Positions 18,428 through 42,868 of a stretch of DNA of 64,000 nucleotides are shown in pieces. The DNA comes from an uncultured Erythrobacter sp. Its GTDB lineage: Bacteria; Pseudomonadota; Alphaproteobacteria; Sphingomonadales; Sphingomonadaceae. The DNA lies in contig CAJXJR010000001.1 of the NCBI GenBank assembly GCA_913055155.1, positions 1-64,000 of the forward strand, read 5' to 3'. The position numbers and the translations under genes were made by a program. Each line of letters starts with the position of its first letter. Within the stretch, counting starts at the first letter, position 1. The notes below the pieces were generated by a model. It saw only the letters and a list, made by a program, of their open reading frames with translations. It was not told where the DNA came from and did no database searches.

Positions 18428-19618
18428 TTAGCGAAACAGGCGCGGCAGGAAGTCGTGCAGGTAACGTCGCCAGTTGATCCAGGTGTGGCCGCCGCCGCTT
18501 TCGTTATAGACGTGTTCGATGCCGTATTCGTCCAGCATGGCGCGGGTAGGGGCGACGGTGCCGTAGAGGAAATCGTCGGTGCCCATGGCGTAGTAGACGA
18601 GGTCCAGTTCCCCGGCTGCCCGTTCCAGCGCTTCGCCGTTCTGCGTGGTGTAGTTGGCAACGTCGTCCGGCCCCATGCCCAGACCCATCGAGAACACGCC
18701 GATATGACTGAACACGTCGGGGCGCGGCAAGCCGAAGCGCAGGGTGTGCGCGCCGCCCATCGACAGGCCGGCCATGGCGCGGTGGTCACGATCGGCAATG
18801 GTGCGGAATTGGCTGTCGATAAAGGGAATCAAGTCCTGGTGCAGGTCGTCCCCGAAATCGGTGTTGGCGAGCATGTCTGTGTCTTCGCGTTGCGGCGTGT
18901 GGCCGAAAGGCATGACGATGATCATGGGTTCCGCGCTGTCTGAGGCCAGCAGGTTGTCGAGGATGTAGTTGGCATGGCCCACGCTGGTCCAGCTGTCCGC
19001 CGAATCGCCGGCTCCATGCACCAGGTACAGGACCGGATAGCTCTCGTTGCCGTTCATGTAGCCCGGCGGGGTATAGACATAGGCTTCGCGCATGGTGCCC
19101 AGCGCGCCGGAGACATATTCTACGCGGCTGACCACGCCATGCGGCACATCTTCGCGCAAAGTCTGGAATGCACCTGCCTCGCCCGGAATTTCCATGGTGG
19201 AGTTGATGCCGCTGCGTTCGCGGCTGAAGGTGGTGGCCATGGGATCGGGCACGCGCGCCCCGTCGACCTCGAAGTTGTAGCGATAGGTGTCGGGCGGCAC
19301 GGGCAGTTCGGTCGTCACGCTCCACAGGCCGGTTTCATCCCTGGCCAGCGGCAGGCCGCGCTCGCCCCCGCCGAACCCGCCGGGCACCCACGGATCGAGA
19401 TCGTTGCTGGTGACCCGCACGTTGTTGGCCTCGGGCGCGCACAGGCGGAAGGTCACGCGGCCGTCTGCCAGCGGCTCGACAGAGACATAGTCGGGCCGGG
19501 CGAAGGGGCCCTGCGGCATGCACGATGCCGCATCGGCACCTTGTTGTGCTAGGGAAGGCGTGACTGGCAGGGCAAGGGCTAGGCCGACAGCGGCCGGTAT
19601 GGCGAATTTTGCAGTCAT
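18428..19618 (-). CDS. Secreted esterase (CE1-like) with N-terminal E-set domain
   Basis: 396 residues. Signal peptide ends at PSLAQ; residues about 35-150 resemble the immunoglobulin-like E-set/CBM48 domain (VTFRLCAPEANNVRV, TYRYNFEVDG). The rest is an esterase-D/CE1 alpha/beta hydrolase: YPVLYLVHGAGDS, nucleophile motif GLSMGG, and catalytic His in GGGHTWINWRRYL. Family members include feruloyl and acetylxylan esterases. ATG 19618 has GGAGAGGA about 6 bases upstream. Likely periplasmic; it stands at the edge of the PQQ island. Confidence 0.9.
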   Translation of the reverse strand: MTAKFAIPAAVGLALALPVTPSLAQQGADAASCMPQGPFARPDYVSVEPLADGRVTFRLCAPEANNVRVTSNDLDPWVPGGFGGGERGLPLARDETGLWSVTTELPVPPDTYRYNFEVDGARVPDPMATTFSRERSGINSTMEIPGEAGAFQTLREDVPHGVVSRVEYVSGALGTMREAYVYTPPGYMNGNESYPVLYLVHGAGDSADSWTSVGHANYILDNLLASDSAEPMIIVMPFGHTPQREDTDMLANTDFGDDLHQDLIPFIDSQFRTIADRDHRAMAGLSMGGAHTLRFGLPRPDVFSHIGVFSMGLGMGPDDVANYTTQNGEALERAAGELDLVYYAMGTDDFLYGTVAPTRAMLDEYGIEHVYNESGGGHTWINWRRYLHDFLPRLFR

Positions 19619-19737
19619 GGGGTCTCCTCTCGCTCCTTCGGGACTTGGCGAGAGCGTACCCCTGCTGTCAATCGTCCATGCAAAACGGGGGCCCTCGACG
19701 AGGACCCCCGCTTGATGTTCCGGTTGCCCGGAAAGGC

Positions 19738-20163
19738 TTAGTTCTGCGCGCGGCGACGAGCTGCGGCCACGGCTTCCGTGGTCGGGTTGCCGAGCGACAG
19801 TTCGCGACCGTTGGGGAAGCGGATTTCCGCTGCCGAGGCACGGGTGTCGCCATCGCGAGCCTGGAAGGCGTCGACGATGATGTCGGTGCCTGCCGGCAGC
19901 GAGTTCCGGTTCCAGCCACGACGCAGCAGCGCGGACGGGGCGCCGCCCTCGATGCGCCAGCGCTCGGTGCTGCCGTTGCGTTCGACGTCGATGTGAATCC
20001 AGGAGTGGGGGTTGACCCACTCGAACATCACGACCTTGCCTTCGAGGCGGATCGGACGGTTACGGTCGAATTCCGTGGCGAACGAGTGGTGCGCATAGGC
20101 ACCAACGCCCGTCACAGCGAGCACGGCGCCGATAGCGGCAGCGCTGAGCTTCTTCATCTGCAT
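19738..20163 (-). CDS. DUF6152 family secreted protein (second copy)
   Basis: 141 residues. Signal peptide, then AHHSFATEFDRNRPI, VVMFEWVNPHSWIHID and LLRRGWNRNSL, the same ordered motifs as the protein at 739-1122 (HHS, W-NPH, RGW). It ends in a basic AAARRRAQN tail. Start ATG 20163 has AGGGAG 7 bases upstream. Function is unknown; the HHS and NPHSW motifs suggest metal binding (inference). It follows the WEGDTLV-type gene at 20251 by 87 bp, repeating the pairing seen near the start of the window. Confidence 0.8.
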   Translation of the reverse strand: MQMKKLSAAAIGAVLAVTGVGAYAHHSFATEFDRNRPIRLEGKVVMFEWVNPHSWIHIDVERNGSTERWRIEGGAPSALLRRGWNRNSLPAGTDIIVDAFQARDGDTRASAAEIRFPNGRELSLGNPTTEAVAAARRRAQN

Positions 20164-20205
20164 GGTTGAACTCCCTAGATTAAAACACTTCAAAAGCTGT
20201 CAGAC

Positions 20206-20233
20206 GGACAAGGTGTTTACGTTGACTTTGTCC
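20206..20233. promoter_or_regulatory. Inverted repeat upstream of the DUF6152 gene
   Basis: GGACAAGGTG and GACTTTGTCC form 10-bp arms (8 matches) across 8 bp, 43 bp before the start codon. The right half is part of a 15-bp stretch nearly repeated at 35996-36010. Possible operator; pattern evidence only. Confidence 0.3.
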
Positions 20234-20250
20234 AGATAGCAAATCCAACA

Positions 20251-21114
20251 TTACTCCTCGATTAAGTCACCGTAGAGCAGGTGCTCGGAAAACGGCACGC
20301 ACTTGAACTCGAGGAGCTGTGCGTTGTCTTCGACATGGCGGTAGAGAACCATGTCCATTTCATACGGCTCCGTCAGGATCGAAGGGTCTTCGATGGTGAC
20401 ATGGTAATCGATGTGGTTGCCACCTTCGCGCAGCGTGAAACGCTCCGTCACGGTGGCGTTGTTGGTGATGTAGTTGCCGGCGCGGTCGATCCAGGTCACG
20501 CCTTCCACCATCTCGCCGGCGGGCAGCTTCACCAGGCCCGGACCCTGCGCCAGAGTGGTGACGACCAGCGTATCGCCATCCCATTCGCCGTAGCTGGTGC
20601 CCATCCAGGTGTCGATCGGCGGGATGCCGACTTCCTGCATGTGGATCACCCGGTTGGCCGAGGCATATTCGTAGACCATCAGGATGTCGTCACCGTCGCC
20701 CTGCACGATCTGGAAGGGGTGCGGCATGTAGGTAGCGCGGGGAATGCCCGGCAGGTAGCAGGCGGCTTCGGGATCATAGGTGATCACGTTCTCGCGGTTG
20801 TACTCCAAGCGTTCCTGCGCCGCTTCGTTGTAGGGGATCGAGCCGCCCTGGACGACGCCCAGGTCAGCCGGAATCGCACCAATCGCACCCAGGATGCGGT
20901 CACCCTGCGGCAGCGGGTTGGGGCCCGCGCTGTGCGGTTCGACATTCCAGTTGGCGCCGTTCATCACCTGCCACACGCCGTTGAGATCGGGATGGTCGCC
21001 AATGCGATCCATTTCCGCACTCTCGTGATTGTCGGCCAGCGCCGGAGCCGCCGGAAGTGTTGCCATTGCCACTGCCGCAGTCGCGACGGTCGCCAAACGT
21101 GTAAGGGCCCGCAT
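20251..21114 (-). CDS. Secreted protein of the 'WEGDTLV' family, function unknown
   Basis: 287 residues with a signal peptide ending at PALAD. The mature N-terminus has HPDLNGVWQVMN, a phrase typical of this little-studied secreted family. The core carries GEWDGDTLVVTT, then TERFTLREGG, then DPSILTEPYEMD, and it ends in LLEFKCVPFSEHLLYGDL. The order is shared with the proteins at 1119, 28638, 29753 and 30880. No enzyme motif is recognised. It lies between the PQQ protein at 21135 (20 bp upstream) and the DUF6152 gene, probably in one transcript. Confidence 0.75.
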   Translation of the reverse strand: MRALTRLATVATAAVAMATLPAAPALADNHESAEMDRIGDHPDLNGVWQVMNGANWNVEPHSAGPNPLPQGDRILGAIGAIPADLGVVQGGSIPYNEAAQERLEYNRENVITYDPEAACYLPGIPRATYMPHPFQIVQGDGDDILMVYEYASANRVIHMQEVGIPPIDTWMGTSYGEWDGDTLVVTTLAQGPGLVKLPAGEMVEGVTWIDRAGNYITNNATVTERFTLREGGNHIDYHVTIEDPSILTEPYEMDMVLYRHVEDNAQLLEFKCVPFSEHLLYGDLIEE

Positions 21115-21134
21115 ATTCTCTCCTCAAGACCTTG

Positions 21135-23093
21135 CTATTGTTCCAGAGCAAAAGCCACGATCCGCCCACCGGCATTGATCGCGACATATTGCCTGCCGTC
21201 GCTTCCCCGATACGAGAACGGGTTGGCGTTGGCGTTACCTTGCAATTGTGCTTCCCATAGCTGCTCGCCACTGTCCGCGTCAAAGGCGCGGAAGCGACGA
21301 TCATTGGTCGCACCTACGAAAACCAGTCCACCTGCCGTCACGCTGGGCCCGGCGCTGCCGGAATTGCCGAGCACGCGGCGATCTTCCGGCAGGCGCTCGT
21401 CATCGTACATGCCGAGCGGCACGGCCCACAGGATTTCGCCGGTATTGGCATCGACCGCAGTCAGCCGCGCCCAAGGCGGCTTGTAGCAGGGCAGGGTGGG
21501 GCCGACAGGGCGGCCATTGTCGTCATATTCGCCCGACAGCGGGGCGTTGAAGCTGAAGAACGGGCCCTTGCCGTCCACACTGGCGCGATCGTACTCGGGC
21601 AGGGGCCCTGCCGCGCTGGTGTCGAAAGAGTAGGGTTCGTCGCCTTCCACTTTCTCCACCCAGCCAACCAGCGAGGTATCCTGTGCGTTGACATAGATGA
21701 CGCCGGTGGTTGGATCGGCTGCCGGTCCGCTCCAGTTCACGCCGCCGGTGCCGCCGGGCAGCTGGATGGTGGAGCGCGGCGGCTGGCCTTCGGCGCGGTA
21801 CATGAAGGGCGTGAACGGCCCCAGGTTCAGGAACCCGCCCGCGTGATCCCACATGGCATAGCAGGCCTCGGAATGTTCGGGCGTGGTATCTTCCGGCCCG
21901 ACGATGTCCTGGTAGGTCATCTCCACGCGGCTGAGCGGCGGGGTGTTGACTGGGAAGGGCTGGGTCGGATGGTAATATTCGCCCGGCACGTCGCCCGGCG
22001 GGACGCGGCGTTCCTCCACCGGCTGCACGGGTTCGCCATCCTCGGCATCGAGCACGTAGACGAGGCTGGACTTGCCGACATTGGCCAGCGCCATGTGCTG
22101 TGAACCGTCAGGCGCCGTAACCGGCAGCAGCGCGCCGGCGTGGCTCATGTCGATATCCCAGATATCGTGGTGCACGGTCTGGAAATGCCACTTGTATTCG
22201 CCGGTTTCGGCATCCACGGCCACCACCGAATTGGCGAACACGTTGGTGCCGGGGCGATCGCCGCCATAGTAATTGTGGGCAGGGCCGGCGATGGGGAGAT
22301 AGACCGTGCCGGTGCTTTCATCCACCGTCGCGGCAAAGCCCCACATGTTGGTGCCGCCGCGATTCTCCGCGCCGCCGCCCCAGGTATCGTGGAACGGTTC
22401 GCCAGCGTCGGGCGTGGTATCGAATTCCCACAACTTTTCGCCGGTCACGACGTTGTAGGCGCGCGGATTGCCGGGGGCGCCTTGCGGATTTTCCAGGCTG
22501 GCGGCGCCGATAATGGCGATATTGCCGGTGATCGTCGGCGTGCCGCTGTAGCCCGGATCGATGGCGACCGAGCCGTTTTGGCCGAACGAAGTGACGGGTT
22601 CGCCAGTGGCGAAGTCGAACGCCATCAGCGCATTGCCGGCAGTTACCAGCAGGCGCGGGCCATGACTGTTGTCACCGGGCCAGTAGCCAAGGCCACGCCC
22701 GGCAAAGCTGGGCGGCGGGCCGGGCTGGTCGCTGGCCGGAAACTGGTGTTCGTGCACCCACACTTCTTCGCCCGTCGCGCCGTCCAGCGCGACGATGCGG
22801 TTTTGTGCGGGGAAATACATGACCCCGTCGATTACCAGCGGAACAGCGTTGTTGAAGGCGCGGTAGGGATAGTCCCAGGCTTGCTGCAGGCTGGCCACGT
22901 TGTCGCGATTGATATCGGCCAGCGGCGAATAGCGGGTGGCCGCGGGATCGCGATGAATGGTCTGCCAGTCACCATCCGGAATCACGCGTGCCTGAGCATG
23001 ATCGTTGGCGGCCAGCGGGGCGGGTGCAACGGTTGTACAGGCAGTTGTGCAGGCAAGCAGAATGGCCACTTTGTAAGCCTTGCTCACGCGCAT
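21135..23093 (-). CDS. PQQ-dependent dehydrogenase, glucose/quinate dehydrogenase type
   Basis: 652 residues. A lipoprotein-like signal (ILLACTTAC) precedes an eight-bladed quinoprotein propeller: DWQTIHRDPAATRYSPL, repeated W-docking motifs (ALDGATGEEVWV, AVDANTGEILWAV, AFDADSGEQLWEA), and the active-site motif VHHDIWDIDM. LPCYKPPWARLTAVD is typical of membrane glucose dehydrogenase relatives, but here there are no N-terminal transmembrane helices and no heme motif. Expected role: periplasmic oxidation of a polyol or sugar with electrons leaving to a separate carrier. Start 23093 is preferred for its GGGAG spacing; ATG 23099 is possible. Confidence 0.88.
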   Translation of the reverse strand: MRVSKAYKVAILLACTTACTTVAPAPLAANDHAQARVIPDGDWQTIHRDPAATRYSPLADINRDNVASLQQAWDYPYRAFNNAVPLVIDGVMYFPAQNRIVALDGATGEEVWVHEHQFPASDQPGPPPSFAGRGLGYWPGDNSHGPRLLVTAGNALMAFDFATGEPVTSFGQNGSVAIDPGYSGTPTITGNIAIIGAASLENPQGAPGNPRAYNVVTGEKLWEFDTTPDAGEPFHDTWGGGAENRGGTNMWGFAATVDESTGTVYLPIAGPAHNYYGGDRPGTNVFANSVVAVDAETGEYKWHFQTVHHDIWDIDMSHAGALLPVTAPDGSQHMALANVGKSSLVYVLDAEDGEPVQPVEERRVPPGDVPGEYYHPTQPFPVNTPPLSRVEMTYQDIVGPEDTTPEHSEACYAMWDHAGGFLNLGPFTPFMYRAEGQPPRSTIQLPGGTGGVNWSGPAADPTTGVIYVNAQDTSLVGWVEKVEGDEPYSFDTSAAGPLPEYDRASVDGKGPFFSFNAPLSGEYDDNGRPVGPTLPCYKPPWARLTAVDANTGEILWAVPLGMYDDERLPEDRRVLGNSGSAGPSVTAGGLVFVGATNDRRFRAFDADSGEQLWEAQLQGNANANPFSYRGSDGRQYVAINAGGRIVAFALEQ

Positions 23094-23462: not shown

Positions 23463-23999
23463 ATGGGTGACTTCTTTTATGGACTGACAGATTGGCTGCG
23501 GACGACAAGTCTGCTCGACGCCGCCTTCTGGATCGAGACGACGGGCTTCAACCGCCTGCTCGTGGAAAACTTCTGGGGCGTGCCGATTGCGCAGGTCCTC
23601 CACATCATCGGGATCGGTGCGGCCTTTGCGGCCACGCTGATGATGACGCTGCGTGTCAACAACATGGCTGGTACCTCGCGTTCCATCCCCGAAGTGTCTG
23701 CGCGCTATGTCCCGTGGATCTGGTGGGGCCTGCTGTGGATCGTTGCCAGCGGCATGCTGATGCTGTGGGCCGAACCGGTCCGCAACATGGTGAACGGCGT
23801 GTTCTGGGTGAAGATGGCGCTGCTGGTGGTGACGATCTTCGTCACGCTGGCGTACCAGAAATCTGTGCGTAGCGCGGCCACTGTCGGCGGTGCCGGCTGG
23901 AATGCAGGCGGAGGGATGCGCCTGACCGGCTGGTTTATCATCATCCTGTGGTGCCTGATCATGGCCCACGGTCGCTGGATCGCCTACGCGCCGGTTTGA
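23463..23999 (+). CDS. DUF6644 family integral membrane protein A
   Basis: 178 residues with about four transmembrane helices: around GVPIAQVLHIIGIGAAFAAT, YVPWIWWGLLWIVASGMLML, VFWVKMALLVVTIFVTLAYQ and GWFIIILWCLIMAHGRWIAY. Histidines sit inside or at the edge of the first and last helices (QVLHII, MAHGRW), as in diheme b-type cytochromes, but heme binding is unproven. ATG follows an AAGAGGGA ribosome site. The next gene is a related protein 14 bp downstream; both face away from the PQQ gene at 21135. Confidence 0.75.
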   Translation: MGDFFYGLTDWLRTTSLLDAAFWIETTGFNRLLVENFWGVPIAQVLHIIGIGAAFAATLMMTLRVNNMAGTSRSIPEVSARYVPWIWWGLLWIVASGMLMLWAEPVRNMVNGVFWVKMALLVVTIFVTLAYQKSVRSAATVGGAGWNAGGGMRLTGWFIIILWCLIMAHGRWIAYAPV

Positions 24000-24013
24000 G
24001 GGGAACTGAATCA

Positions 24014-24532
24014 ATGGCTTCTTATTATCCTGAACCCACGAATATCTGGGAATCGATCGAATACTCGTCACTCGGCACTTCCATTGCCGAGAGCCTGTGG
24101 GCCTTCCCCACGCTGGAGACGATCCACGTCATCGCGCTGGTCACCGTGTTCGGCACCATCGCCATCATGGACCTGCGCCTGCTTGGCCTGGCTGGCAACA
24201 AGTGGACCGTGCTGGAGATGAGCCAGGACACGCTGAAGTGGACCTGGGCGGGCTTTATCCTGGCCGCGATCACCGGCACGCTGCTGTTCACCAGCAAGGC
24301 GAGCACCTACATGGTCAATCCCTATTTCCTCGTGAAAATGGGGCTGCTGGCGCTGGCTGGCCTGAACATGGCCTACTTCCATTTCGTCACCTACAAGACG
24401 GTGAATGACTGGAACGCCTCTCCGGTGTTGCCGTCGGGCGCGAAGTTCGCCGCGGCAACGTCGCTGGTGCTGTGGATCGCCGTGGTCTTCTGCGGCCGTG
24501 CCATCGGCTTCACGCTGGGGATTTACTACTAA
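24014..24532 (+). CDS. DUF6644 family integral membrane protein B
   Basis: 172 residues, four transmembrane helices, related in layout to the preceding protein. Histidines are found in LETIHVIALVTVFG and in NMAYFHFVTY, again at helix positions that could ligate heme. It has a VLPSGAKFAAATSLVLWIAV last helix. ATG has GGGGAA about 9 bases upstream. The pair ends at a strong terminator, so they form a two-gene unit. A role as a membrane electron carrier for the nearby dehydrogenases is a hypothesis. Confidence 0.75.
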   Translation: MASYYPEPTNIWESIEYSSLGTSIAESLWAFPTLETIHVIALVTVFGTIAIMDLRLLGLAGNKWTVLEMSQDTLKWTWAGFILAAITGTLLFTSKASTYMVNPYFLVKMGLLALAGLNMAYFHFVTYKTVNDWNASPVLPSGAKFAAATSLVLWIAVVFCGRAIGFTLGIYY

Positions 24533-24554
24533 GGCTGTAACAGCCTTGGATGCG

Positions 24555-24587
24555 AAAAGGGCCGCTCGATTGAGCGGCCCTTTTTGT
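24555..24587 (+). terminator. Rho-independent terminator after the DUF6644 pair
   Basis: A 9-bp perfect stem GGGCCGCTC / GAGCGGCCC with a GATT loop is followed by TTTTT, and preceded by AAAA, so it may also act on the opposite strand. Confidence 0.85.
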
Positions 24588-24625
24588 TGGCGGCTGAGAC
24601 TACAGTACCAAGGCCCAGCCCGGAA

Positions 24626-24760
24626 CTATTCAAACTCCTTGCTTAGCCGCTTTTGCGCTGCGCGTTCGCGCCGTCCACGCAAACCGCCCCGTATGATGGC
24701 TGAAAGCAAGAAGAAAGGGACCAGCAGCGCACCCAGGAGGATTAGCCCTGACACGGTCAT
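24626..24760 (-). CDS. 44-residue single-pass membrane protein
   Basis: ATG 24760 overlaps the TGA of the upstream PQQ-cytochrome gene (ATGA), and the frame runs 44 codons to TAG. It reads MTVSGLILLGALLVPFFLLS, a transmembrane helix, then IIRGGLRGRRERAAQ and a basic cytoplasmic tail ending KEFE. Such small proteins often stabilise or anchor a partner complex. No known family is recognised. Translational coupling to a periplasmic quinohemoprotein suggests a role in its assembly or membrane docking (inference). Confidence 0.6.
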   Translation of the reverse strand: MTVSGLILLGALLVPFFLLSAIIRGGLRGRRERAAQKRLSKEFE

Positions 24761-26847
24761 TCTCCCGCCGTTGGGTTATCCAAAGCAAAAACGTAGACCG
24801 CCGAGCTGTTCACCTCGGGGAGCGGAAACTCAGGCGTGAAGTTGGGCAGGCCGAACGCCAGCGGGTTGCCCATGCCTGTCACCACGGCGACATATTGGCG
24901 CCCGTCGACCGAATAGGTGATGGGGCTGGCATTGGGCACGCCGGTCAGCCCGGTGCGCCAGAGCTGTTCGCCGGTCGCCTGGTCGTAGGCCAGGAATTCG
25001 CGGTCCATCGCGCCGGTGAACAGGAGGCCGCTGGCCGTGGCCAGCACGCCTGCATCGTACGGCGCGCGGCGGCGGTGTTCCCACACCACTTCGCCGCTTT
25101 CCATGTCGATCCCCTGCAGGATGCCGAAATTGCCGTCGCTGTCAGGCGGGGCGGAATAGTAGATATCCACGCCGCTGGAGAGGAAGCCGCCTTCGGTCGG
25201 GCGCATTTCCATGCAGGTATCGCGTGCGTTGACGAACAGCATCGATGTATCTTCGTCGAAGGCCGTGGCACTCCAGTTGCGGCCGCCGCCGGCGTGCGGG
25301 CACATGAACACTGCGGGCCGGTCGCGCCCCGGCAGCAGATCGGGGTCTGGCGTCTTGCGGCCCGTCTCGGGGTCGATATCGATGATGAAGGTCTGAAAGC
25401 CCATGTCGACCGTGCTCAGGTACTCGCCCGTGCTCGCGTCGATGGTGTCGAACAGGCCTTCCTTGCCGCCGGTTATGATCACGCGGCGCTCCTCGCCGTC
25501 CACCTCGACGTTGGCGATCACCCGTTCGAACACCCAGTCGAGGTCGTACTGGTCGTTGGCCATGTGCTGGTAGTACCAGACCAGCTCACCCGTACGCGGT
25601 TCGAAAGCGAGGGTGGAATTGGTGAACAGGCCATCGTTGTTGCCGCCGGGGATGCGGTCGCGCACCGGCCCGGTGTCATAGGTCTGCGCCACGCCCCAGT
25701 ATGCCAGGCCGGTTTCAGCATCATAGGAACCGACATCCCAGACAGAGCCGCCCTGGCGCAACTCGTCGGGAACGCCGTTCCAGGTGTCTCCGCCCAGCGT
25801 GCCGGTCTTGGCAATGGTGTCGAAGTTCCACAGGTGTTCGCCGGTCTCGGCATCGAAGGCGGCAATCAGCCCGCCGCCCAGGCGCTGGGTGGCTAGGCCG
25901 ATCATGGCCACGCCGTCTGCCACCAGCACGCCGCCGTTGCTGCGCGTATCCTGCGCATTGGGGATGGGAACGTCCCACACCGGTTCACCCGTGCGGGCAT
26001 CCAGCGCCATCATGTGCAGGTCGCTGGTCGCCATGATCAGCATGTCGTCCCACAGGGCGATCGCCTTCTTGCCCTGCATCAGCGTGCCTTCGGGCATGTC
26101 GCGGCGATAGCGCCATAGCTGGCGACCGGTGGCGGCATCGAAGGCGAACACCTCCTCGCCATAGGCGTGGACGTACATCACCCCGTCGCGCACCAGCGGT
26201 TCGGACATGGTCGGACCCAGCGGCAATGCCTGCGCCCAGGCTATCGACAGGTCGCCAACGTTTTCCGGTGTGATCTGGTCGAGCTCCGAGTAGCCATGGG
26301 CATCGTGATCGCCGCGCCAGACGATCCAGTTCTCGGGCGCCGGGTTGTCGAGCATTTCCTCGGTCACCGGCGTGTAGTCTGCAAACAGGTCGGGCAGGGG
26401 CGGCGATTCGGGGAAGGGATAGCGGTTGGTGATGCCGGGCAGGCCGATCTCGTTTCCGGCCTCGTCTTCTGCTTCGGGCACGAGGGCCGCCAGCAGCGTT
26501 TCCGCCTCGCCGCCGTTTTCGGCGATGATCAGCGCGGCCAGCGCGGCGTAGGTCTGCGACGGTAGCGAACCGCCTGCGCCCGGCGGCATCGAGGTTTCGA
26601 GATAGTCCTGCAGTTCGGCAGCGGACTTGCCGCCCCAGTTGGCCTGGAACACCGGCCCGGTCAGCGTGCCGGCGAATTGCCCGCCTGAAAGGTCTGCCCC
26701 ATGGCACCCTGCACAGCTGGCGGCATAGGCGGTGCGGCCAGCCTCCACCTGCTCGGCGAAGCCTGGCTGTTGCTGGGCCGTGCCCGCTGCCGCAAACGCC
26801 ATTGCCGACATGCCCGCCCCTGCGAGCAAGACCTTTCCGATTCCCAT
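24757..26847 (-). CDS. PQQ-binding propeller with N-terminal cytochrome c domain
   Basis: 696 residues. After a signal peptide (AAAGTAQQ) comes a class I cytochrome c domain with CAGCH at 45-49 and a Met-ligand candidate in TSMPPGAGG. From about residue 165 the quinoprotein propeller follows: VWRGDHDAHGYSELDQIT, FDAATGRQLWRY, ALDARTGEPVWDV, AFDAETGEHLWNF, and YDQATGEQLWRT. The central motif reads HMANDQYDLDWVF, in place of the HHDxWDxD seen in the glucose type. Likely a periplasmic alcohol-oxidising quinohemoprotein with the heme domain fused in front, opposite to classical type II alcohol dehydrogenases. RBS GAGGAGGA precedes ATG 26847. Confidence 0.85.
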   Translation of the reverse strand: MGIGKVLLAGAGMSAMAFAAAGTAQQQPGFAEQVEAGRTAYAASCAGCHGADLSGGQFAGTLTGPVFQANWGGKSAAELQDYLETSMPPGAGGSLPSQTYAALAALIIAENGGEAETLLAALVPEAEDEAGNEIGLPGITNRYPFPESPPLPDLFADYTPVTEEMLDNPAPENWIVWRGDHDAHGYSELDQITPENVGDLSIAWAQALPLGPTMSEPLVRDGVMYVHAYGEEVFAFDAATGRQLWRYRRDMPEGTLMQGKKAIALWDDMLIMATSDLHMMALDARTGEPVWDVPIPNAQDTRSNGGVLVADGVAMIGLATQRLGGGLIAAFDAETGEHLWNFDTIAKTGTLGGDTWNGVPDELRQGGSVWDVGSYDAETGLAYWGVAQTYDTGPVRDRIPGGNNDGLFTNSTLAFEPRTGELVWYYQHMANDQYDLDWVFERVIANVEVDGEERRVIITGGKEGLFDTIDASTGEYLSTVDMGFQTFIIDIDPETGRKTPDPDLLPGRDRPAVFMCPHAGGGRNWSATAFDEDTSMLFVNARDTCMEMRPTEGGFLSSGVDIYYSAPPDSDGNFGILQGIDMESGEVVWEHRRRAPYDAGVLATASGLLFTGAMDREFLAYDQATGEQLWRTGLTGVPNASPITYSVDGRQYVAVVTGMGNPLAFGLPNFTPEFPLPEVNSSAVYVFALDNPTAGE

Positions 26848-31911: not shown

Positions 31912-31912
31912 G

Positions 31913-35374: not shown

Positions 35375-35918
35375 CGCGCTCCTCGGTATATTCCTCTAGC
35401 GTCAGGTCCTCGTTCGGCCGCGGCTGGGCGACATCGTCCACCGTCACGCCTTCGGGCAGTTCCTCGGGCGGGTACATGCGGTGGCAGGCGCTGCATACCG
35501 AGTAGATGGTACCGCCCACTTCGAACACGGCTTCCGGGTCCTGCGCGATGGCAGCCTGTTGCGCGTCGGCGGAAACATCCACCAGTCCCTGCGCATAGGC
35601 ATTCCAGTCCTCGCCGCGCCCCTCGGCATAGGCAGGCGTCATCAGCATTTCACCAAGCTCGCCAAGATGCTGCGCGGCGGCGCGCACCTCTTCCCATTCG
35701 GCATCGGTCTCCGGCTGCCATTCGCGGAACACCGGCTCGCCATCCACCAGTTCGCTGGCAGACCCGACAGAGCCCCAGAAAATCTCGGCAGTGGGCTGCA
35801 TTTCCTGCGCCATCATCTGCTGCGCCGTTCCCAACGGGGGTACCTCTTCGGACTGGTTGCAGCCCGCCAGCGCCAGTGTGGCCAGGGCCCCTGCGATAAT
35901 GCGAATGTCCGTCTTCAT
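35364..35918 (-). CDS. Periplasmic cytochrome c lipoprotein, heme near the C-terminus
   Basis: 184 residues. Lipobox LALAGC at the N-terminus, then a mainly helical acidic domain. The single heme c motif CSACH lies at residues 142-146 in IYSVCSACHRMYPPEELP, close to the C-terminus, as in four-helix cytochrome c'-type proteins. An electron-transfer or gas/redox-sensing role is likely in the periplasm, tethered to a membrane by lipid. It is the first gene of a three-gene operon with the HupE-like and anchor proteins. Confidence 0.78.
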   Translation of the reverse strand: MKTDIRIIAGALATLALAGCNQSEEVPPLGTAQQMMAQEMQPTAEIFWGSVGSASELVDGEPVFREWQPETDAEWEEVRAAAQHLGELGEMLMTPAYAEGRGEDWNAYAQGLVDVSADAQQAAIAQDPEAVFEVGGTIYSVCSACHRMYPPEELPEGVTVDDVAQPRPNEDLTLEEYTEERDAD

Positions 35919-36133: not shown

Positions 36134-36517
36134 ATGTCCGTTTCCGTTAAGAGCTTTGGCAAGCTGGCGCTGGCAGCGCTGGGTGCTTCAACCGTCGTGA
36201 TCGGCGTTTCGGGCGCCATGGCGACCGATGTCGATCCCACGCAGCCTGCCGCAGTCGAACCGCTGACCGAAGAACAGGCCGACGCCAGCCGCACGCTGTT
36301 CAGCCAGTATGGCTGCGGCTCGTGCCATGCGCTGGCCGATGCCAACGGGTATGGTCATATCGGCCCCTCGCTGGATGGCAACGACACGCTCAGCGTCGAC
36401 TACGTGAAGACCATCGTCAGCAACGGCCAGGGCGCAATGCCCAGCTTCGGCGGCATGGTGTCCGACGAAGAGATCGAGACGCTGGCGCGCTACATCGTGG
36501 AAAAGAAGGCCGACTGA
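36134..36517 (+). CDS. Class I cytochrome c
   Basis: 127 residues with a signal peptide ending near SGAMA. The heme motif CGSCH is at 61-65 and the axial Met candidate is Met102 in GQGAMPSFGGM, with LARYIVEKK as the C-terminal helix. Small soluble periplasmic cytochrome, expected to take electrons from PQQ dehydrogenases and pass them to a terminal oxidase. AAGGGG lies 11 bases before the ATG. It ends at a terminator and stands alone on the plus strand within the minus-strand island. Confidence 0.9.
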   Translation: MSVSVKSFGKLALAALGASTVVIGVSGAMATDVDPTQPAAVEPLTEEQADASRTLFSQYGCGSCHALADANGYGHIGPSLDGNDTLSVDYVKTIVSNGQGAMPSFGGMVSDEEIETLARYIVEKKAD

Positions 36518-36567: not shown

Positions 36568-36571
36568 CGTA

Positions 36572-37567
36572 TCAGTCACCAGCCTGCTCGCGCGCGGTGC
36601 GCGAATTGGGCCCGACCTGCGCGAAGTAGTTGGTCACCCCGTCGGGATCGTTCAGCCACACGGTGGTGAGGTCGAAGCCACGCAGGCGGTTGAGCGGGGT
36701 CTCCACCGTGATCTCGCGGTGACGGGCGCGCGCGTCGACCATGGCGGCATCGCTCACCACGTACTGGATGCCCGAACTGCCGGTGTCGGCGGGCATGCCC
36801 TCGGCAATCTGGTGGAGGTAGACCGTCGTCTCGCCGTGACGATAGGGGTAGCGGGTGATGGCAAGCGCCGCACTGTCCTGCGCCGGCAGTTCATCAAGGC
36901 CCACGAAGTCGCGATAGAAAGCGCGGCTGGCCGCCATGTCGGAAACGCCGATACCCACGCCAACGCCGCCGTCGGAATGATCCAGGAAGCCTTCACCGGT
37001 GATGATCTCGATCGTCAGGCCGGCGGGATCGGTGGTCCAGCCGGTCCGCATGCCGTCGGCCAATTCGCGTAGCACGGGCGGCTCGAACCCGGCCTCCTCG
37101 AACCTCTGCACCACGACGTCCGGATCGGGATAGGTGAGGGTAAGGTAGCGGATACCCGTACCGCCGGTCCAGCCGCCCGACAGGTCGTAGCTGCGGTTGC
37201 CTTGCTGCCCTGCGGACAGCTTTACCTGCCCGCTGCCGACACCGGTCAGGATCATCTGCTGGGTGCTGGTCAGCTGGATGGGATTGAGCGAGCGCAGCGC
37301 CAGCGCCTGCGTGTAGAAGCGCACCATGTCCTCGGTCAGCTCGCGCGGGAAACGGCGGAAGACGTTTGCCGAATCCTGCACGAACAGGGCGCGGTTGTTC
37401 GCCTCCAGAGTAGCCGTGTCGAAATCCGCCAGGTCGTAGGCAAGGTCGCCGCTGGTATCGAGCAGCGCGCCTTCGGGTGTGCGCACCTGTCCGCTTTCCT
37501 GCGCGGTGGCGGTGCAGGCGGCGAGAGCCGTTGCCGCAAGGGCGATTATGGACAAGCGCATGGTCAT
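36572..37567 (-). CDS. Two-domain VOC family lipoprotein
   Basis: 331 residues with a lipobox in ALAACTATA. Two vicinal-oxygen-chelate modules are visible: GIRYLTLTYPDPDVVVQRFE with LTIEIITGEG, then VGIGVSDMAASRAFYRDFVG with TTVWLNDPDGVTNYF. Secretion as a lipoprotein is unusual for this mostly cytoplasmic fold. Possible dioxygenase, lyase or isomerase acting on a product of the neighbouring dehydrogenase; metal ligands are not certain. Its ATG overlaps the stop region of the PQQ gene at 37564 (ATGA). Confidence 0.75.
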   Translation of the reverse strand: MTMRLSIIALAATALAACTATAQESGQVRTPEGALLDTSGDLAYDLADFDTATLEANNRALFVQDSANVFRRFPRELTEDMVRFYTQALALRSLNPIQLTSTQQMILTGVGSGQVKLSAGQQGNRSYDLSGGWTGGTGIRYLTLTYPDPDVVVQRFEEAGFEPPVLRELADGMRTGWTTDPAGLTIEIITGEGFLDHSDGGVGVGIGVSDMAASRAFYRDFVGLDELPAQDSAALAITRYPYRHGETTVYLHQIAEGMPADTGSSGIQYVVSDAAMVDARARHREITVETPLNRLRGFDLTTVWLNDPDGVTNYFAQVGPNSRTAREQAGD

Positions 37568-39516
37568 TCCTCCGCCTCGGTGTCATCGGGCAGCGCCCAG
37601 ACGATCAGGCTTTCGTTGTTGAGCGGGCCATTAGGGCCCATTTGCGGCGGGCCGAAGCCCGACCCGGTGGCGAACACTGCGACGTACTGGCGCCCGTCGG
37701 CCCCGCGATAGCTGATCGGGATCGTCATGGCCGCGTAGTCGAGCTGTTCCTGCCAAACGATCTCGCCGGTGGCGGAATCGAAGGCGCGGAAAATCCCGTC
37801 GGACGTCGCACCGATGAAGACGAGGCCACCTGCCGTCGCCATCGGTCCGCCGAAAGTGTTGTTCGAGCCCGTTTCGGCCTTGTCCTCGCCCAGTTCGGGC
37901 GTGGTGCCCAGCCGGCTGGCCCAGGCGATCTCGCCGGTATTGGCATCGACCGCCACCAGCCGTCCCCACGGGGGGCGGATGCAGGGCAGGGTCACGCGGG
38001 AACCGTCCTCTGCGGTGAAAGTGGCTGAGAAGCTGGAATAGGCGCCGGGTCCGGTCAGGCTGCCGCGATCGTACAACTGCGTGCTGTCCGCCGTACCGCG
38101 GCCGTAGTCGCCATCCGGGTCACGCGCCTCGATCCAGCCGATGGAGCCGCTTTCGCTGGTGTTGACGAAGACATAGCCCGTCGCCGGGTCCACCGCGCTG
38201 CCGCCCCAGTTGGAGCCGCCATTGTGCGGCAGGTTGATGCTGGCGCGCGGGGGGTCGCCTTCCTCGTGCAGGAAGAAGGGCGTGAAGGGCCCGGCGTTGA
38301 AGAAATATCCGCCGTAGCTGTCGAGCAGGGCGTGGCAGGCGGCAACGTGTTCGGCGTTGGTGTCTTCCGCCGTTACCACGTCTTCGGGTGACCACCACAT
38401 GCGCGAAAGCGGCTCGGGGGCGACGGGAATGGGCTGGGTGGGCGAATACCATTCGCCCGGCACGTCACCGCGTGCCACCGGCATCTCGTTCACGCCGTGC
38501 ACCGGTTCGCCGGTGCGGCGGTCGAGGATGTACATCAGGCCCGGCTTGCCCGTTTCGGCCAGGGCAGGGATGGTCTCGCCGTCCAGTTCCACGTCCACCA
38601 GCACCGGCGGGGCGGGCAGGTCCCAGTCCCACAGGTCATGGTGGATGGTCTGGAAGTGCCAGCGGTATTCGCCGGTGCGCGCATCCAGCGCCAGGATGGA
38701 ATTGCCGAACAGGTTGTCGCCCGGACGATCACCGCCATAGTAGTTCGGGGATGGGCTGCCCAGGGTCATGTAGATCATGCCGGTTTCGACATCGCCGGTC
38801 ATGTACCACACCCACATGTTGTTGCCTGGCCGGTCGCGCCAGCCGTCGTCGAGCCAGGTCTCGTGCCCGATCTCGCCGGGCTGGGGCACGGTGTTGAATT
38901 CCCACAAGAGCTCGCCCGTGCGCGCGTCATAGGCCTTGGAATTGCCAAGCGGGCCGCTGGGCAGTTCGGGGGTGGAGGCGCCGATCACCAGCACGTCGCC
39001 GAAAATGCTCGGCGGATAGGAATAGCGCACCTCGAACGGCACGCGGCCGTCTTCGCCGAAGCTTTCCACGATCTCGCCGTTCGCGGCGCTGATGGCGACG
39101 ATTTCGTTGCCGCCGTTGTAATAGAGCCTTGCGGGCGTGGTCTCGTCACCCGCCCAGTACGTAACACGGCGGCGCACGGTGGTGCCTTCGATGGCATGGC
39201 GCCAGATCTCGCGGCCGGTGTGGGCTTCCAGCGCCACCACGGCATCGCCCAGCGGCAGGTACATCACCCCGTCGACCACGCTGGGCACGGTGCCCGCCAG
39301 GATGAAACCGCCGCCTTGCGGACGCAGGCGGTATTCCCAGGCGCGTTCCAGCCGGTTCACGTTATCGCGGTTTATGTCGGCAAGCGGGGCGTAGCGTTGC
39401 CCGGAATGGCTGCGGGCATAGTGCGGCCAGTCGCCGTCGGCGGGTTCCTGTTGGGCGAGGGCAGGGAGGGCGAGCGAGAGCGTCGCAGCGCCAGCCAGAA
39501 GAACGCGAAGCTTCAT
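37564..39516 (-). CDS. PQQ-dependent dehydrogenase, glucose dehydrogenase type
   Basis: 650 residues with a signal peptide (SLALPALAQQ) and no heme or transmembrane region. Quinoprotein marks: DWPHYARSHSGQRYAPL, ALEAHTGREIWRHA, ALDARTGEYRWHFQT with IHHDLWDWDLPAPP, LPCIRPPWGRLVAVD, AFDSATGEIVWQEQ and a final YRGADGRQYVAVFATG. Closest in layout to the protein at 21135. Start ATG 39516 overlaps the monooxygenase stop (TGATG). Periplasmic oxidation of a sugar, polyol or cyclic alcohol is expected. Confidence 0.88.
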   Translation of the reverse strand: MKLRVLLAGAATLSLALPALAQQEPADGDWPHYARSHSGQRYAPLADINRDNVNRLERAWEYRLRPQGGGFILAGTVPSVVDGVMYLPLGDAVVALEAHTGREIWRHAIEGTTVRRRVTYWAGDETTPARLYYNGGNEIVAISAANGEIVESFGEDGRVPFEVRYSYPPSIFGDVLVIGASTPELPSGPLGNSKAYDARTGELLWEFNTVPQPGEIGHETWLDDGWRDRPGNNMWVWYMTGDVETGMIYMTLGSPSPNYYGGDRPGDNLFGNSILALDARTGEYRWHFQTIHHDLWDWDLPAPPVLVDVELDGETIPALAETGKPGLMYILDRRTGEPVHGVNEMPVARGDVPGEWYSPTQPIPVAPEPLSRMWWSPEDVVTAEDTNAEHVAACHALLDSYGGYFFNAGPFTPFFLHEEGDPPRASINLPHNGGSNWGGSAVDPATGYVFVNTSESGSIGWIEARDPDGDYGRGTADSTQLYDRGSLTGPGAYSSFSATFTAEDGSRVTLPCIRPPWGRLVAVDANTGEIAWASRLGTTPELGEDKAETGSNNTFGGPMATAGGLVFIGATSDGIFRAFDSATGEIVWQEQLDYAAMTIPISYRGADGRQYVAVFATGSGFGPPQMGPNGPLNNESLIVWALPDDTEAEE

Positions 39517-40757
39517 CAATGGATCTGTCCCTGCCTGCCTGAAATATCGATAGCCACCCTGTCGCTGGGATCGGCATCGACCCAGCGGCTGCCGGGGCGC
39601 AGCACGTCGCCGATCACCTTGTAGGCGAACAGCATCAGCAGCGCGCCGCTTTCGGGGTTCTCGTCCAGCGCGCGGATGTGCGCCAGGTCCTGCTTGCGCT
39701 GCTGCATGTCGGTCTCCTGCAACATCCGCTTGTTCTCTGTCGCGGCGGGGGAGACGACTTCCCAGAACACCCGCCGGCGTTCGTCGGAAAAGCGGTCGAG
39801 GATCGACTCATCCTCTTCCCCCCGCAAGACCGCGCCCAGCACGTCTGCCAGCACCACGCCGGTCCAAACGCCCGAAGTCAGGCCCAGCCCGCCGCAGGGG
39901 TTGGTGGCGTGCGCGGCATCACCTGCCAGCAGCACATGGCCCTTGCGCAAGGTCTCGCCCGCGCGCTGATGCAGCATGTAGGGGCTGGCGGAGACGATCT
40001 CGTAGTCCTTCCTTCCCTGCATGAACCATTCGTAGCGCTGGTGGATGCGGTCTTCGTAGCCGTCCAGCGGCAGCGAAGCATCTTCCATGTAGGTGCACCG
40101 CCACAGGCCGTCGCGATCGAGCTGCGCGATCACTGCCATGTTTACAGGGTCGCAGACGAAGTTTGCCTGCTGGTAGCCCAGTTCCTGGAAAGGGAACTTC
40201 ACGTTGGTTGCGACGAAGCGTTCAGGCCAGGTGTGGCCTTCGAATTCGATCCCCGCCAGCTTGCGCACAGTGCTGCGCGCGCCGTCGCAGCCGATCAGCC
40301 ATCTGGCTCGGAAATCCTGCCCGCCTGCCGTCACGGTCACGCCTTCGCCGTCATCGGCAATGGCTGTCACCTCGTGGTCGAACAGCACCTCCACGCCCAG
40401 CTTCTGCGCATGTTCCATCGCCACGCGCGCCACGTCGTGTTGGCCCGCGTGCAGCTGGTAGTCGAACGGAATGCCTTCAACCGGCTGCGTTACGACGACG
40501 GAGTGATAGCCGAATTCGGGGATATGCGTGCCGAAGGTCTTGTTGGTGAACCCGATTTCCAACAGCTCGTCCAGCAGCCCCAGCTCTTCCAGGATGATGA
40601 GCGTGGAAGGGAAATAGACCGCCGCGCGCGGGCTGTTGATGATGTGGGGTTCCTTTTCCAGCACGCGCACGCTGGCGCCAGCCTGCGCCAGGGTGAGTGC
40701 GGTGAGCATGCCGACGGGGCCGGCGCCCACGATGATGACATCGGTCTCGTCCATCAT
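39516..40757 (-). CDS. FAD-dependent monooxygenase (PHBH-like)
   Basis: 413 residues, cytoplasmic. The dinucleotide-binding start is DVIIVGAGPVGMLTALTLAQ, followed by the DG motif in GCDGARSTVRKLAG and the FAD ribityl GD motif HVLLAGDAAHATNPCGGLG. This is the p-hydroxybenzoate-hydroxylase fold, whose members hydroxylate aromatic or polyketide-like rings with NAD(P)H and O2. Its presence among periplasmic dehydrogenases points to an aromatic or ring-containing substrate. It is coupled to the PQQ gene upstream by ATGA (40757/40754) and to the next by TGATG. Confidence 0.88.
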   Translation of the reverse strand: MMDETDVIIVGAGPVGMLTALTLAQAGASVRVLEKEPHIINSPRAAVYFPSTLIILEELGLLDELLEIGFTNKTFGTHIPEFGYHSVVVTQPVEGIPFDYQLHAGQHDVARVAMEHAQKLGVEVLFDHEVTAIADDGEGVTVTAGGQDFRARWLIGCDGARSTVRKLAGIEFEGHTWPERFVATNVKFPFQELGYQQANFVCDPVNMAVIAQLDRDGLWRCTYMEDASLPLDGYEDRIHQRYEWFMQGRKDYEIVSASPYMLHQRAGETLRKGHVLLAGDAAHATNPCGGLGLTSGVWTGVVLADVLGAVLRGEEDESILDRFSDERRRVFWEVVSPAATENKRMLQETDMQQRKQDLAHIRALDENPESGALLMLFAYKVIGDVLRPGSRWVDADPSDRVAIDISGRQGQIH

Positions 40758-42868
40758 TCGGCTTCCTCTTCGGCAGCGCGCGCGGCGGCTTCGCTCAGCA
40801 CATAGGCGCGCACGGCTTCGCTTTGTTCGGCGGTGATCCACGGCGCGAAGGAGATCATGCCGTTGTCTGCCAGCACGCCTTCCATCACCACGCTGTTCCA
40901 CGCATCGGCATCGGTAGCATAGACGCTGCGCAGCAGGTTCGGGTTGACCGGGCCGTTATGGCAGATGGTGCAGAAACCCAGGTAGGTCTGCTGCCCCATG
41001 GCAATGGTCTGCGCACTGAATTCCTCATCAGTGGAGACATAGGGCGGCAGCTGCTGCGGCGGCAGGTCTTCGTACACGCCTTCGCCGTCCAGCTTGAACA
41101 CGAACAACATGCCGTTGGGCGGCGGGCGGCGCATCCAGTCGGCCTGTGTGGCCATGCCCATGGAACCGCCATAGCCGGCCATTACTGCGACGTACTGTTC
41201 ACCATCCACGGCGTAGGAGATGGCGCCCGCCACGATGCCGCGATCGGTGTTGAAGCTCCACAGCGGGGTCCCGTCTTCGGCGTTGTAGGCGTTGAAGCTG
41301 CCATCGGGCAGGCCCTGGAACACCAGGTTGCCTGCCGTTGCCAGCGTGCCGCCGTTCCACGGGAACTCGCGCTCGATGGTCCAGCGCGCTTCCTGCGCCA
41401 CCGGGTCCCACGCCACCAGTTCGCCTTTGGTGATGGAGGTGAGATAGGCGCGGCGTGCTTCGGGCGTGTCGCCCGGCACCAGCCCGGCAGGCGGGGTGAG
41501 GAAGATCACGCCGGTATTCCAGCGCCCGATATTCCGGGTGTAGTTCACATCGTCCATGTAGGCCGATGGCGGCTGCATTGCGGGGATGTAGACCAGTCCC
41601 GTCTGCGGCGAATAGCTCATCGGGTGATAGGCGTGCGCACCGATGCCGCTGGGGGTAACGAGGTAGGGCGCGTTCTCGTAGCGCGCCTCGGGAATTTCCA
41701 CCGGGCGACCGGTCTCCAGGTCGATCCGTTCGGCCCAGTTCTGCATGGCATAGGGTTCGGCAGAGATCAGCGTGCCGTCACGCCGGTCGATCACGTAGAA
41801 AAACGCGTTCTTGGGCGCCTGCATCACGACCGGCACCGTCTCGCCGTCGATCTCGCGGTCGGTCAGGATCATCTGCTGGGTGGCGGTATAGTCCCAGGTC
41901 TCACCGGGATTGAGCTGGTAGTGCCAGTTGTAGGCACCCGTGTCCGGGTTCAGCGAGAGGATGGAGGCAAGGAACAGGTTGTCGCCTTCGCCGTTGCTGC
42001 GCGCGCGGTGGTTCCAGGGGGCGCCGTTGCCCACCCCCACCAGCAACTGGTCCAGCTCGGCGTCGTAGACGACCGAATCCCAGACGGTGCCTCCGCCGCC
42101 CATCTCCCACCATTCGCCGGACCAGGTGTCGGTGGCGAATTCCTCGAACACGGCATCCGAAGCGGCACCATCGGGGCCGTCCGCCGGGTTGCCCGGCACC
42201 GTGTAGAAGCGCCACACCAGTTCGCCGGTATCGGCGTCGTAGGCAGAGATATATCCGCGCACGCCCAGCTCCGCGCCGGAGTTGCCGATTATCACCTTGT
42301 CGCGCACCACGCGCGGCGCCATCGTAATGGTATAGGGCTGGCTCTGGTCGACAGTCACGACGTCCCACAGTTCCTCGCCCGTGGCGGCATCCAGCGCCAC
42401 CAGCCGCCCGTCGATGGTGCCGACGAAGACCTTGCCTTCCCATACCGCCACGCCGCGGTTGACCACGTCGCAGCAGGTGTGCGCGCCTTTGGCGCCGTCC
42501 ACTTCGGGATCGTAGAACCACAGCTGTTCGCCGGTGGCGGCATCCAGCGCCATCACCTTCGACCAGGCGGTGGAAACGTACATTACCCCGTCGACCACGA
42601 TCGGCGTCGCTTCCTGCCCGCGCTTGGTGTCGAACTCCACCGTGTAGGCGAGGGCGAGGCGGTCGATGGTGTCGGTGTTGATCTGGTCCAGCGGGCTGAA
42701 GCGGTCCTCGCTGTAGGTCCGTCCGTGGGCCAGCCAGTTGTCGGGATCGCTGTCGGCGTTCAGCAGCCGTTCCTGCGTGACATTGCCCGCCGGGGTGTCG
42801 CTGCATGCGGCGGCGGTGAGGGCCAGGCTCACGGCGGTAAGCGCAACAAGGAAACGCCTTGCGATCAT
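40754..42868 (-). CDS. PQQ alcohol dehydrogenase with C-terminal cytochrome c (quinohemoprotein)
   Basis: 704 residues. Signal/lipobox LTAAACSDT. Classical methanol/ethanol dehydrogenase propeller with the vicinal cysteines in HTCCDVVNRG (132-133), SNGEGDNLFLASI, and the active-site GETWDYTATQQ, where the position after WDY is Thr rather than the extra Asp of lanthanide enzymes, so Ca2+ is expected. Heme motif CTICH at 633-637 with a Met candidate at 672. This is the type II quinohemoprotein ADH layout: alcohol to aldehyde in the periplasm with internal electron transfer. It is the first gene of the VOC/PQQ/monooxygenase operon. Confidence 0.93.
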   Translation of the reverse strand: MIARRFLVALTAVSLALTAAACSDTPAGNVTQERLLNADSDPDNWLAHGRTYSEDRFSPLDQINTDTIDRLALAYTVEFDTKRGQEATPIVVDGVMYVSTAWSKVMALDAATGEQLWFYDPEVDGAKGAHTCCDVVNRGVAVWEGKVFVGTIDGRLVALDAATGEELWDVVTVDQSQPYTITMAPRVVRDKVIIGNSGAELGVRGYISAYDADTGELVWRFYTVPGNPADGPDGAASDAVFEEFATDTWSGEWWEMGGGGTVWDSVVYDAELDQLLVGVGNGAPWNHRARSNGEGDNLFLASILSLNPDTGAYNWHYQLNPGETWDYTATQQMILTDREIDGETVPVVMQAPKNAFFYVIDRRDGTLISAEPYAMQNWAERIDLETGRPVEIPEARYENAPYLVTPSGIGAHAYHPMSYSPQTGLVYIPAMQPPSAYMDDVNYTRNIGRWNTGVIFLTPPAGLVPGDTPEARRAYLTSITKGELVAWDPVAQEARWTIEREFPWNGGTLATAGNLVFQGLPDGSFNAYNAEDGTPLWSFNTDRGIVAGAISYAVDGEQYVAVMAGYGGSMGMATQADWMRRPPPNGMLFVFKLDGEGVYEDLPPQQLPPYVSTDEEFSAQTIAMGQQTYLGFCTICHNGPVNPNLLRSVYATDADAWNSVVMEGVLADNGMISFAPWITAEQSEAVRAYVLSEAAARAAEEEAE

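Follow-up and report, generated by a model that had tools for sequence, protein, structure and literature searches.

The window analysed here, the first 64,000 nucleotides of contig CAJXJR010000001.1, comes from an uncultured Erythrobacter sp., a sphingomonad with a 3.10 Mb genome in 21 contigs and an estimated completeness of 100%. Between positions 18428 and 42868 it carries a 24 kb block of genes for enzymes of the pyrroloquinoline quinone (PQQ) type, cytochromes, membrane proteins and secreted proteins, and this block is a real, strongly conserved unit that is inherited in order. On balance, it probably encodes a conserved alcohol-oxidising system in the cell envelope of some Erythrobacteraceae-type sphingomonads, run on scavenged PQQ.

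Neighbourhoods of a tandem family of secreted proteins, Sec, were taken from relatives and counted in 19 genomes of six genera. Every block gene found in these 19 neighbourhoods is collinear with the window, and strands are kept. Three dehydrogenases of the glucose dehydrogenase (GDH) type, a lipoprotein with VOC-like modules (VOC), a small cytochrome c (cytC), Sec and a carboxylesterase are present in all 19 genomes. Two DUF6644 membrane proteins (a and b), the more distant secreted protein Sec4 and a DUF6152 protein are present in 18 (the G182 neighbourhood is cut by a contig end, beyond which its Sec4 and DUF6152 would lie), the cytochrome cytHup in 17, the membrane protein TMa in 16, a HupE/UreJ_2 family protein in 15, and a quinoprotein with a haem domain in front (hemePQQ) in 14. 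The non-core genes are those for a quinohaemoprotein alcohol dehydrogenase, QHADH (6/19), a LOV-LuxR protein (3/19), a flavin adenine dinucleotide (FAD)-dependent monooxygenase (2/19) and a feruloyl-esterase-like protein (2/19). Of the genes listed in the original prediction, the monooxygenase, the feruloyl-esterase-like gene and QHADH prove to be accessory rather than core. Left out of the 19 were G030, of a seventh genus, in whose fragmented assembly GDH1-3, VOC, Sec, Sec4, DUF6152 and carboxylesterase genes are spread over separate contigs, and all of the loci L009-L035, of which at least L015, L017, L027 and L028 appear to repeat genomes already counted (G156, G228, G140 and G007). The block occupies at least three chromosomal contexts, with a GST-HADH-kinase flank in many genomes and two other flanks in genera g62 and g65; because the flanks differ between genera, the order of the block is not merely that of the surrounding chromosome. 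A foreign island is not supported by composition, G+C content being 0.60-0.67 throughout.

A survey of 249 genomes of the family, each at least 90% complete, scored the best eight Sec and the best four GDH candidates per genome. Sec was found at E <1e-100 in 21 genomes belonging to seven genera (27 at E 0.001), and GDH homologues in 25 genomes at E <1e-200 and in 92 at E 1e-100. VOC occurs in 25 genomes, identical to the 25 with a close GDH and containing all 21 Sec genomes. Carriers of the block that can be cultured include Aurantiacibacter odishensis KCTC 23981 (L011) and A. rhizosphaerae GH3-10 (L024). The preset test of whether the neighbours co-occur in related genomes thus came out in favour of the unit, both by collinearity and by the nesting of the Sec, VOC and GDH genome sets. 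VOC is found in 9 of 91 genera, which implies fewer events than the genome counts suggest; in a class-level sample of 289 genomes it was found in three, all of the source genus.

Smaller versions of the block also exist. Four genomes (G072, G110, G137 and G166) possess only the GDH3-VOC pair, with cytC adjoining in three of the four. In Erythrobacter sp. UBA1916 (L021, positions 9035-10957) VOC and Sec are fused in one open frame of 640 codons, the junction being confirmed at the DNA level, and a second in-frame fusion of 652 codons (L080, contig C5 of G156, positions 11563-13521) lies next to genes for a GDH3-like enzyme and for a large TonB-dependent receptor. The occurrence of this fusion in two genomes ties VOC to Sec. 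Two members of the source genus, G202 and G238, have no Sec, VOC or close GDH. At the same site in G202, a search with the window proteins found the LOV-LuxR gene, the feruloyl-esterase-like gene, a kinase and the flank beyond. The G238 site (L163:7173-10663) retains the kinase, cytHup, DUF6644 b, DUF6644 a, DUF6152 and LOV-LuxR genes in the order and strands of the block, and gave no match at E 1e-5 to the quinoproteins, VOC, Sec, carboxylesterase, HupE or TMa. The simplest account of these two sites would be that genes were deleted from a once complete block.

As predicted, five quinoprotein propellers are encoded at 21135, 24757, 31913, 37564 and 40754; all have PF01011 domains and lie on the minus strand. 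Three are full-length GDH-type propellers with the HHDxWDxD motif: GDH1 (21135-23093; 530 bits to PF01011; start codon chosen by the analysts), GDH2 (31913-33886; 580.2 bits; with a lipobox) and GDH3 (37564-39519; 545.1 bits; with a signal peptide). These are the only GDH-type enzymes of the source genome, whose other contigs hold four further quinoproteins, matching partially as alcohol dehydrogenase (ADH)-type proteins do, and one weak propeller on contig C8. The best large-family match of GDH1, GDH2 and GDH3 is TIGR03074 (glucose/quinate/shikimate dehydrogenases), at 349.3, 412.9 and 366.6 bits, respectively, all missing its cut-off of 832.65. The match begins at model positions 115-148, and the N-terminal transmembrane domain is absent, with a signal-peptide-like stretch in front of the propeller. 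The equivalents of R266, W404, D466 and K493 (numbering of Escherichia coli Gcd), which we take to be catalytic or PQQ-contact residues, show no variation among the 17 rows of each of GDH1, GDH2 and GDH3 or among the four rows of the mini-module enzymes; GDH2 thereby retains the catalytic Asp and Lys. At position 355, Glu replaces Asn in GDH1 and GDH3, both of which keep Asn at 607. The HHDxWDxD motif is found in 26/26 rows of GDH1, 33/33 of GDH2 and 23/27 of GDH3; the GDH3 rows without it are G156, G155, L012 and L014, and the first two, which are among the 17 rows, still align Asp466.

A quick tree places GDH1, GDH2 and GDH3 in three clades with support of 100, 100 and 99, the mini-module enzymes being nested in the GDH3 clade; some long branches (E. 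coli Gcd, QHADH) are joined in this tree, and its root is uninformative. The persistence of three enzymes side by side over six genera suggests that they have three distinct tasks. By score and domain layout GDH1-3 fall outside the glucose dehydrogenase family proper, though they should work like it. They share with E. coli Gcd the propeller and the four invariant residues; unlike Gcd, they have no membrane domain, score under half of the family cut-off and are clustered, as three paralogues, alongside VOC and Sec partners.

The other two propellers carry haem c domains on opposite sides, as had been proposed. In QHADH (40754-42868, minus strand), a lipobox-bearing enzyme that passes TIGR03075 (the PQQ methanol/ethanol family) with 652.9 bits against a cut-off of 480.05, a Cytochrome_CBB3 domain lies behind the propeller at 622-690. 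It shares propeller and C-terminal haem c with the type II quinohaemoprotein alcohol dehydrogenases (PDB 1kb0, 1kv9 and 1yiq), but is an accessory of the block. In hemePQQ (24757-26847, minus strand), which misses the TIGR03075 cut-off (346.5 bits), the cytochrome domain precedes the propeller; CxxCH is present in 21 of 27 rows, the other six starting inside the haem domain through the chosen gene starts. A haem domain before the propeller is the architecture of polyvinyl-alcohol-dehydrogenase-like enzymes, with which hemePQQ shares its domain order, although in sequence the solved structures nearest to it are those of ADH-IIG, sorbose dehydrogenase and other ADHs.

A check for pqq synthesis genes, run with PqqC and PqqE, gave a result against synthesis. 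PqqC (TIGR02111) exceeds its cut-off in 6 of the 249 family genomes, none of them among the 25 carriers; the carrier G222 gives a match of 33 bits, far under the cut-off of 240. PqqE (TIGR02109), sought in all 25 carriers as well as in those six genomes, is over cut-off in the same six only, with weak radical-SAM matches in all 31. Since six relatives have both PqqC and PqqE, the search works, and as far as these two proteins tell, the carriers appear not to make PQQ by the known route. Strong GDH-type homologues occur in 92 genomes, 88 of which have no PqqC over cut-off; the exceptions are G009, G143, G171 and G178. The carriers probably obtain PQQ from their surroundings. One study (PMC12124388) describes many Gram-negative bacteria with PQQ enzymes as non-producers dependent on environmental PQQ, which E. 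coli imports through PqqU for Gcd; such import answers the same scavenging problem, whereas the picture in the present family is of PqqC in 6/249 genomes beside strong GDH-type homologues in 92/249. When E. coli PqqU, with its signature residues Y99, R304 and R365, was used to search 19 carriers together with G202 and G238 (21 genomes in all), weak near full-length matches were found only in G137 and G228. The best match in the source genome, of 46.5 bits, covers residues 28-177 in the plug region; in contrast to E. coli, no clear PqqU orthologue was found in this genome.

Four secreted proteins had been listed as having no assigned role, and indeed none of them matched a Pfam family. Sec3 (28638-29756), Sec2 (29753-30880) and Sec1 (30880-31911; family A3/A5), all on the minus strand, form one tandem family in which the other two are 46 and 52% identical to the first; Sec4 (20251-21114, minus strand) is 25-29% identical to these three. 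Sec1-3 have no NCBIfam match and no sequence relative in the PDB, and a search of PLSDB plasmids with Sec gave four weak partial matches only. Two cysteines and, close to the end, a Cys-His-Glu motif are among the residues that do not vary in Sec. An AlphaFold model of Sec2, with a predicted local distance difference test (pLDDT) score of 81.4 and a predicted TM-score of 0.79, has a C-terminal beta-barrel. Its best structural matches are fatty-acid- and retinol-binding proteins of the FABP type, with a few NanoLuc entries, at VIA Z of 7.5-8.0 over approximately 110-130 residues; the top alignment (Z 8.0, 115 residues, 3.2 A) is weak, and Foldseek found nothing below E 0.012. Outside the family, Sec relatives are found in metagenome-assembled genomes (MAGs), four of Acidobacteriota and one of Caulobacteraceae.

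The VOC lipoprotein (36572-37567, minus strand; PF00903, 37.2 bits) consists of two VOC-like modules. By eye, in a consensus of 26 rows, the usual His/Glu positions, which we take to be the metal ligands of metal-dependent VOC enzymes, are not conserved. The modelled Sec barrel and a putatively metal-free VOC are weakly suggestive of binding to hydrophobic molecules. Profile searches with Pfam recovered the VOC lipoprotein, the monooxygenase and both predicted esterases, of which the carboxylesterase (26885-28555, minus strand; PF00135, 321 bits) has a lipobox in its window copy. A rough heuristic count of lipoboxes, given no weight here, found them in 29/29 rows of cytHup, 9/12 of QHADH, 20/33 of GDH2, 15/26 of VOC, 11/33 of carboxylesterase and 2/30 of GDH1.

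Both of the free cytochromes that had been proposed are present with their CxxCH motifs. The gene for cytC (36134-36517, plus strand; PF13442, Cytochrome_CBB3, 53.8 bits) is divergent from that for VOC, and the motif is kept in 31 of 31 rows. The lipoprotein cytHup (35364-35918, minus strand), with no Pfam match, has its motif (CSACH) at the C-terminus and appears c'-like by eye. Between it and GDH2, and missing from the earlier gene list, are the HupE/UreJ_2 family membrane protein (34664-35374, minus strand; PF13795, 164.2 bits) and its membrane-anchored partner TMa (34029-34667, minus strand), which matches no family. The predicted DUF6644 pair is encoded on the plus strand: protein b (24014-24532) passes PF20349 with 38.2 bits against a cut-off of 27, and protein a (23463-23999) falls slightly under it with 26.1. 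One His is invariant in both, and a second, noted by eye, is conserved in b alone. A role for DUF6644 as a haem b quinone reductase was considered and is not supported: the four-helix model of b (pLDDT 86.4) has no PDB match below E 0.5, and designed haem bundles and cytochrome b561 appear solely among insignificant rows. The DUF6152 protein (19738-20163, minus strand) scores 112.3 bits against a cut-off of 27, as expected. HupE-TMa, the cytochrome c', the DUF6644 pair and DUF6152 may constitute a separable sub-module, or several.

A periplasmic oxidation system with cytochromes, as first proposed, is well supported by these predicted features, and gene overlaps of 1-11 bases together with strand changes are consistent with the suggested five or so transcripts. 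If the block works as a scavenger-fed oxidation system, apo-enzymes would be loaded in the periplasm with PQQ derived from other organisms, and GDH1, GDH2 and GDH3 would oxidise different hydroxyls, or different alcohols, of one compound class, with electrons flowing through the small cytochrome c to the oxidase. The carboxylesterase may free or trim the substrate, while VOC and the Sec barrels may serve as binders of a bulky hydrophobic molecule, either substrate or product, which they would deliver to the enzymes or to uptake. GDH3-VOC-cytC would then be a minimal engine, to which the long block would add two dehydrogenases and more binders. The substrate can be guessed to be an ester-bearing aromatic or terpenoid.

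Several observations weigh against such a system. In G238, cytHup, DUF6644 and DUF6152 persist without the quinoproteins of the block, which is therefore not indivisible; the idea that the block has its own electron wiring is only partly supported, the c'-type cytochrome and the DUF6644 pair being kept in this genome although it has lost every quinoprotein of the island. In all three GDH clades the residues equivalent to Gcd H262 and D354 are replaced, and GDH2 is additionally changed at 355 and 607 (mostly to Ala and Val). The fold match of Sec2 is at a level that the tool flags as a common arrangement. Copies of Sec are also located far from quinoproteins, some of them next to genes of the carotenoid-oxygenase and GMC types. 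A 3.7 Mb Vicinamibacteraceae MAG (L034, G535) has 122 Sec matches and at least 78 PF01011 matches (78 of 229 candidates scored), and linkage of the two is not supported in this one acidobacterial genome: Sec lies near quinoproteins hardly above chance, 19 of 112 matches being within 3 kb (approximately 14 expected) and 29 of 112 within 5 kb (approximately 24 expected), in a test that assumed uniform spread, entered 112 of the 122 Sec matches and counted some pieces of one gene separately among the 78.

It is possible, if doubtful, that the block acts on compounds derived from lignin, or on other phenylpropanoids or stilbenoids, with esterases freeing aromatics and quinoproteins oxidising side-chain alcohols in the periplasm before cleavage in the cytosol. 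Sec neighbourhoods outside the block lean towards aromatic or terpenoid plant compounds. Among 45 such loci (40 examined by hand in rank order plus L073, L075, L080, L081 and L083), nine (L107, L108, L121, L124, L125, L126, L129, L132 and L133) have, whole or in part, at least two members of a recurrent set comprising an RPE65-type oxygenase, a GMC oxidoreductase, DUF3237, a TPP enzyme, MFS and Amidohydro_2, the Pfam names resting on one representative each except for MFS; the count has no random-locus baseline, and several of the nine are one locus in different relatives. A large TonB-dependent receptor stands beside Sec in 5 of the 45. In the source genome, an RPE65-type gene on contig C2 is immediately followed by a Sec copy, and the same region encodes a tannase/feruloyl esterase, GCV_T and an FAD_binding_4 oxidase; within the window, an FAD monooxygenase of aromatic type occurs together with two esterases. 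However, RPE65-type enzymes also cleave carotenoids, and the aromatic-type genes of the window, the monooxygenase and the feruloyl-esterase-like gene, are the accessory ones. That GDH1-3 are instead sugar or polyol dehydrogenases, of the E. coli Gcd or quinate/shikimate dehydrogenase type, feeding respiration, is unlikely: their best large-family match of 349-413 bits points that way, but all are far under the cut-off and have no N-terminal membrane domain, the equivalent of His262, presumably the sugar-specificity residue, is replaced in every row, and they lie among an esterase and possible binders of hydrophobic molecules.

The block might also be several independent small envelope modules that stand side by side and are collinear through shared descent, an improbable arrangement given that the order is intact in at least three chromosomal contexts, that Sec, VOC and GDH co-occur in nested fashion and that VOC and Sec can be fused; the remnant site of G238, the near-empty site of G202, the lone mini-modules of four genomes and the layout in about five transcripts speak for it. 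It is very unlikely that the propellers are empty quinoproteins, binding scaffolds without PQQ. The carriers have neither PqqC nor PqqE over cut-off, position 354 is changed in all three GDHs and the GDH2 pocket is changed further; on the other side stand the invariant Asp466, Lys493, Arg266 and Trp404 equivalents, the cytochromes attached and adjacent, and the failure of all five propellers to reach the cut-off of 650 for TIGR04528 (Acido-empty-quinoprotein group A), the best score being 368.2 bits. Scarcely probable is a role for Sec, aided by the large TonB-dependent receptors that adjoin certain GDH-VOC-Sec modules, in capturing and loading PQQ scavenged by a route other than PqqU, in the manner of haemophores. 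An envelope system that oxidises alcohols with scavenged PQQ is preferred to these readings.

The feruloyl-esterase-like secreted esterase (18428-19618, minus strand; PF00756, 78.7 bits) gives 198.6 bits to NF041944, under its cut-off of 1200. The FAD-dependent monooxygenase (39516-40757, minus strand; PF01494) has no signal peptide by eye. A PAS and LuxR-type regulator at 17643-18260, with a LOV-like GRNCRFL motif and a presumed resemblance to the light-regulated EL222, was rejected as the block's regulator, since only 3 of 19 genomes have it nearby and it persists in G202 and G238 without the dehydrogenases. A separate catabolic region (194-16221) encodes MaoC, an SGL/gluconolactonase, two MetE-like proteins, a glyoxalase, a CoA-transferase III, a citrate-synthase-like protein, a PD40-amidohydrolase, a TetR regulator, a TonB receptor, a hydrolase and an MFS protein, and is followed by an HpcH/CitE-type lyase gene at 16581; in it a second DUF6152 gene overlaps a Sec4-like gene (29% identity). 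These left-hand genes (approximately 194-16221) were rejected as part of the block after a search with five proteins at E 1e-10, in which TetR, TonB-dependent receptor, ABH, MFS and HpcH mapped in none of G098, G012 and G156. A transfer-messenger RNA gene at 51052-51390, found by ARAGORN, encodes the tag ANDNEALAIAA.

No described function for the 24 kb block was found in the open-access full-text literature. The accessible portion of a report on deoxynivalenol epimerisation by Devosia A6-243 (PMC8779532) offers a likeness, a bacterial oxidation activity assisted by PQQ, but such a gene block is not described in it. Work on lignin dimers in N. aromaticivorans, in the part available (PMC11323797), includes one putative PQQ-dependent aldehyde dehydrogenase among the candidates tested and does not describe the block. 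Known enzyme classes are here joined to unfamiliar partner families, in a single gene order across six genera that links families without known function (Sec, DUF6152 and DUF6644) to quinoprotein oxidation. The block points to a group of Alphaproteobacteria whose PQQ enzymes are kept with neither recognisable PQQ synthesis nor, in the source genome, a clear PqqU; both the origin of their PQQ and the compounds oxidised with its help can be tested directly.

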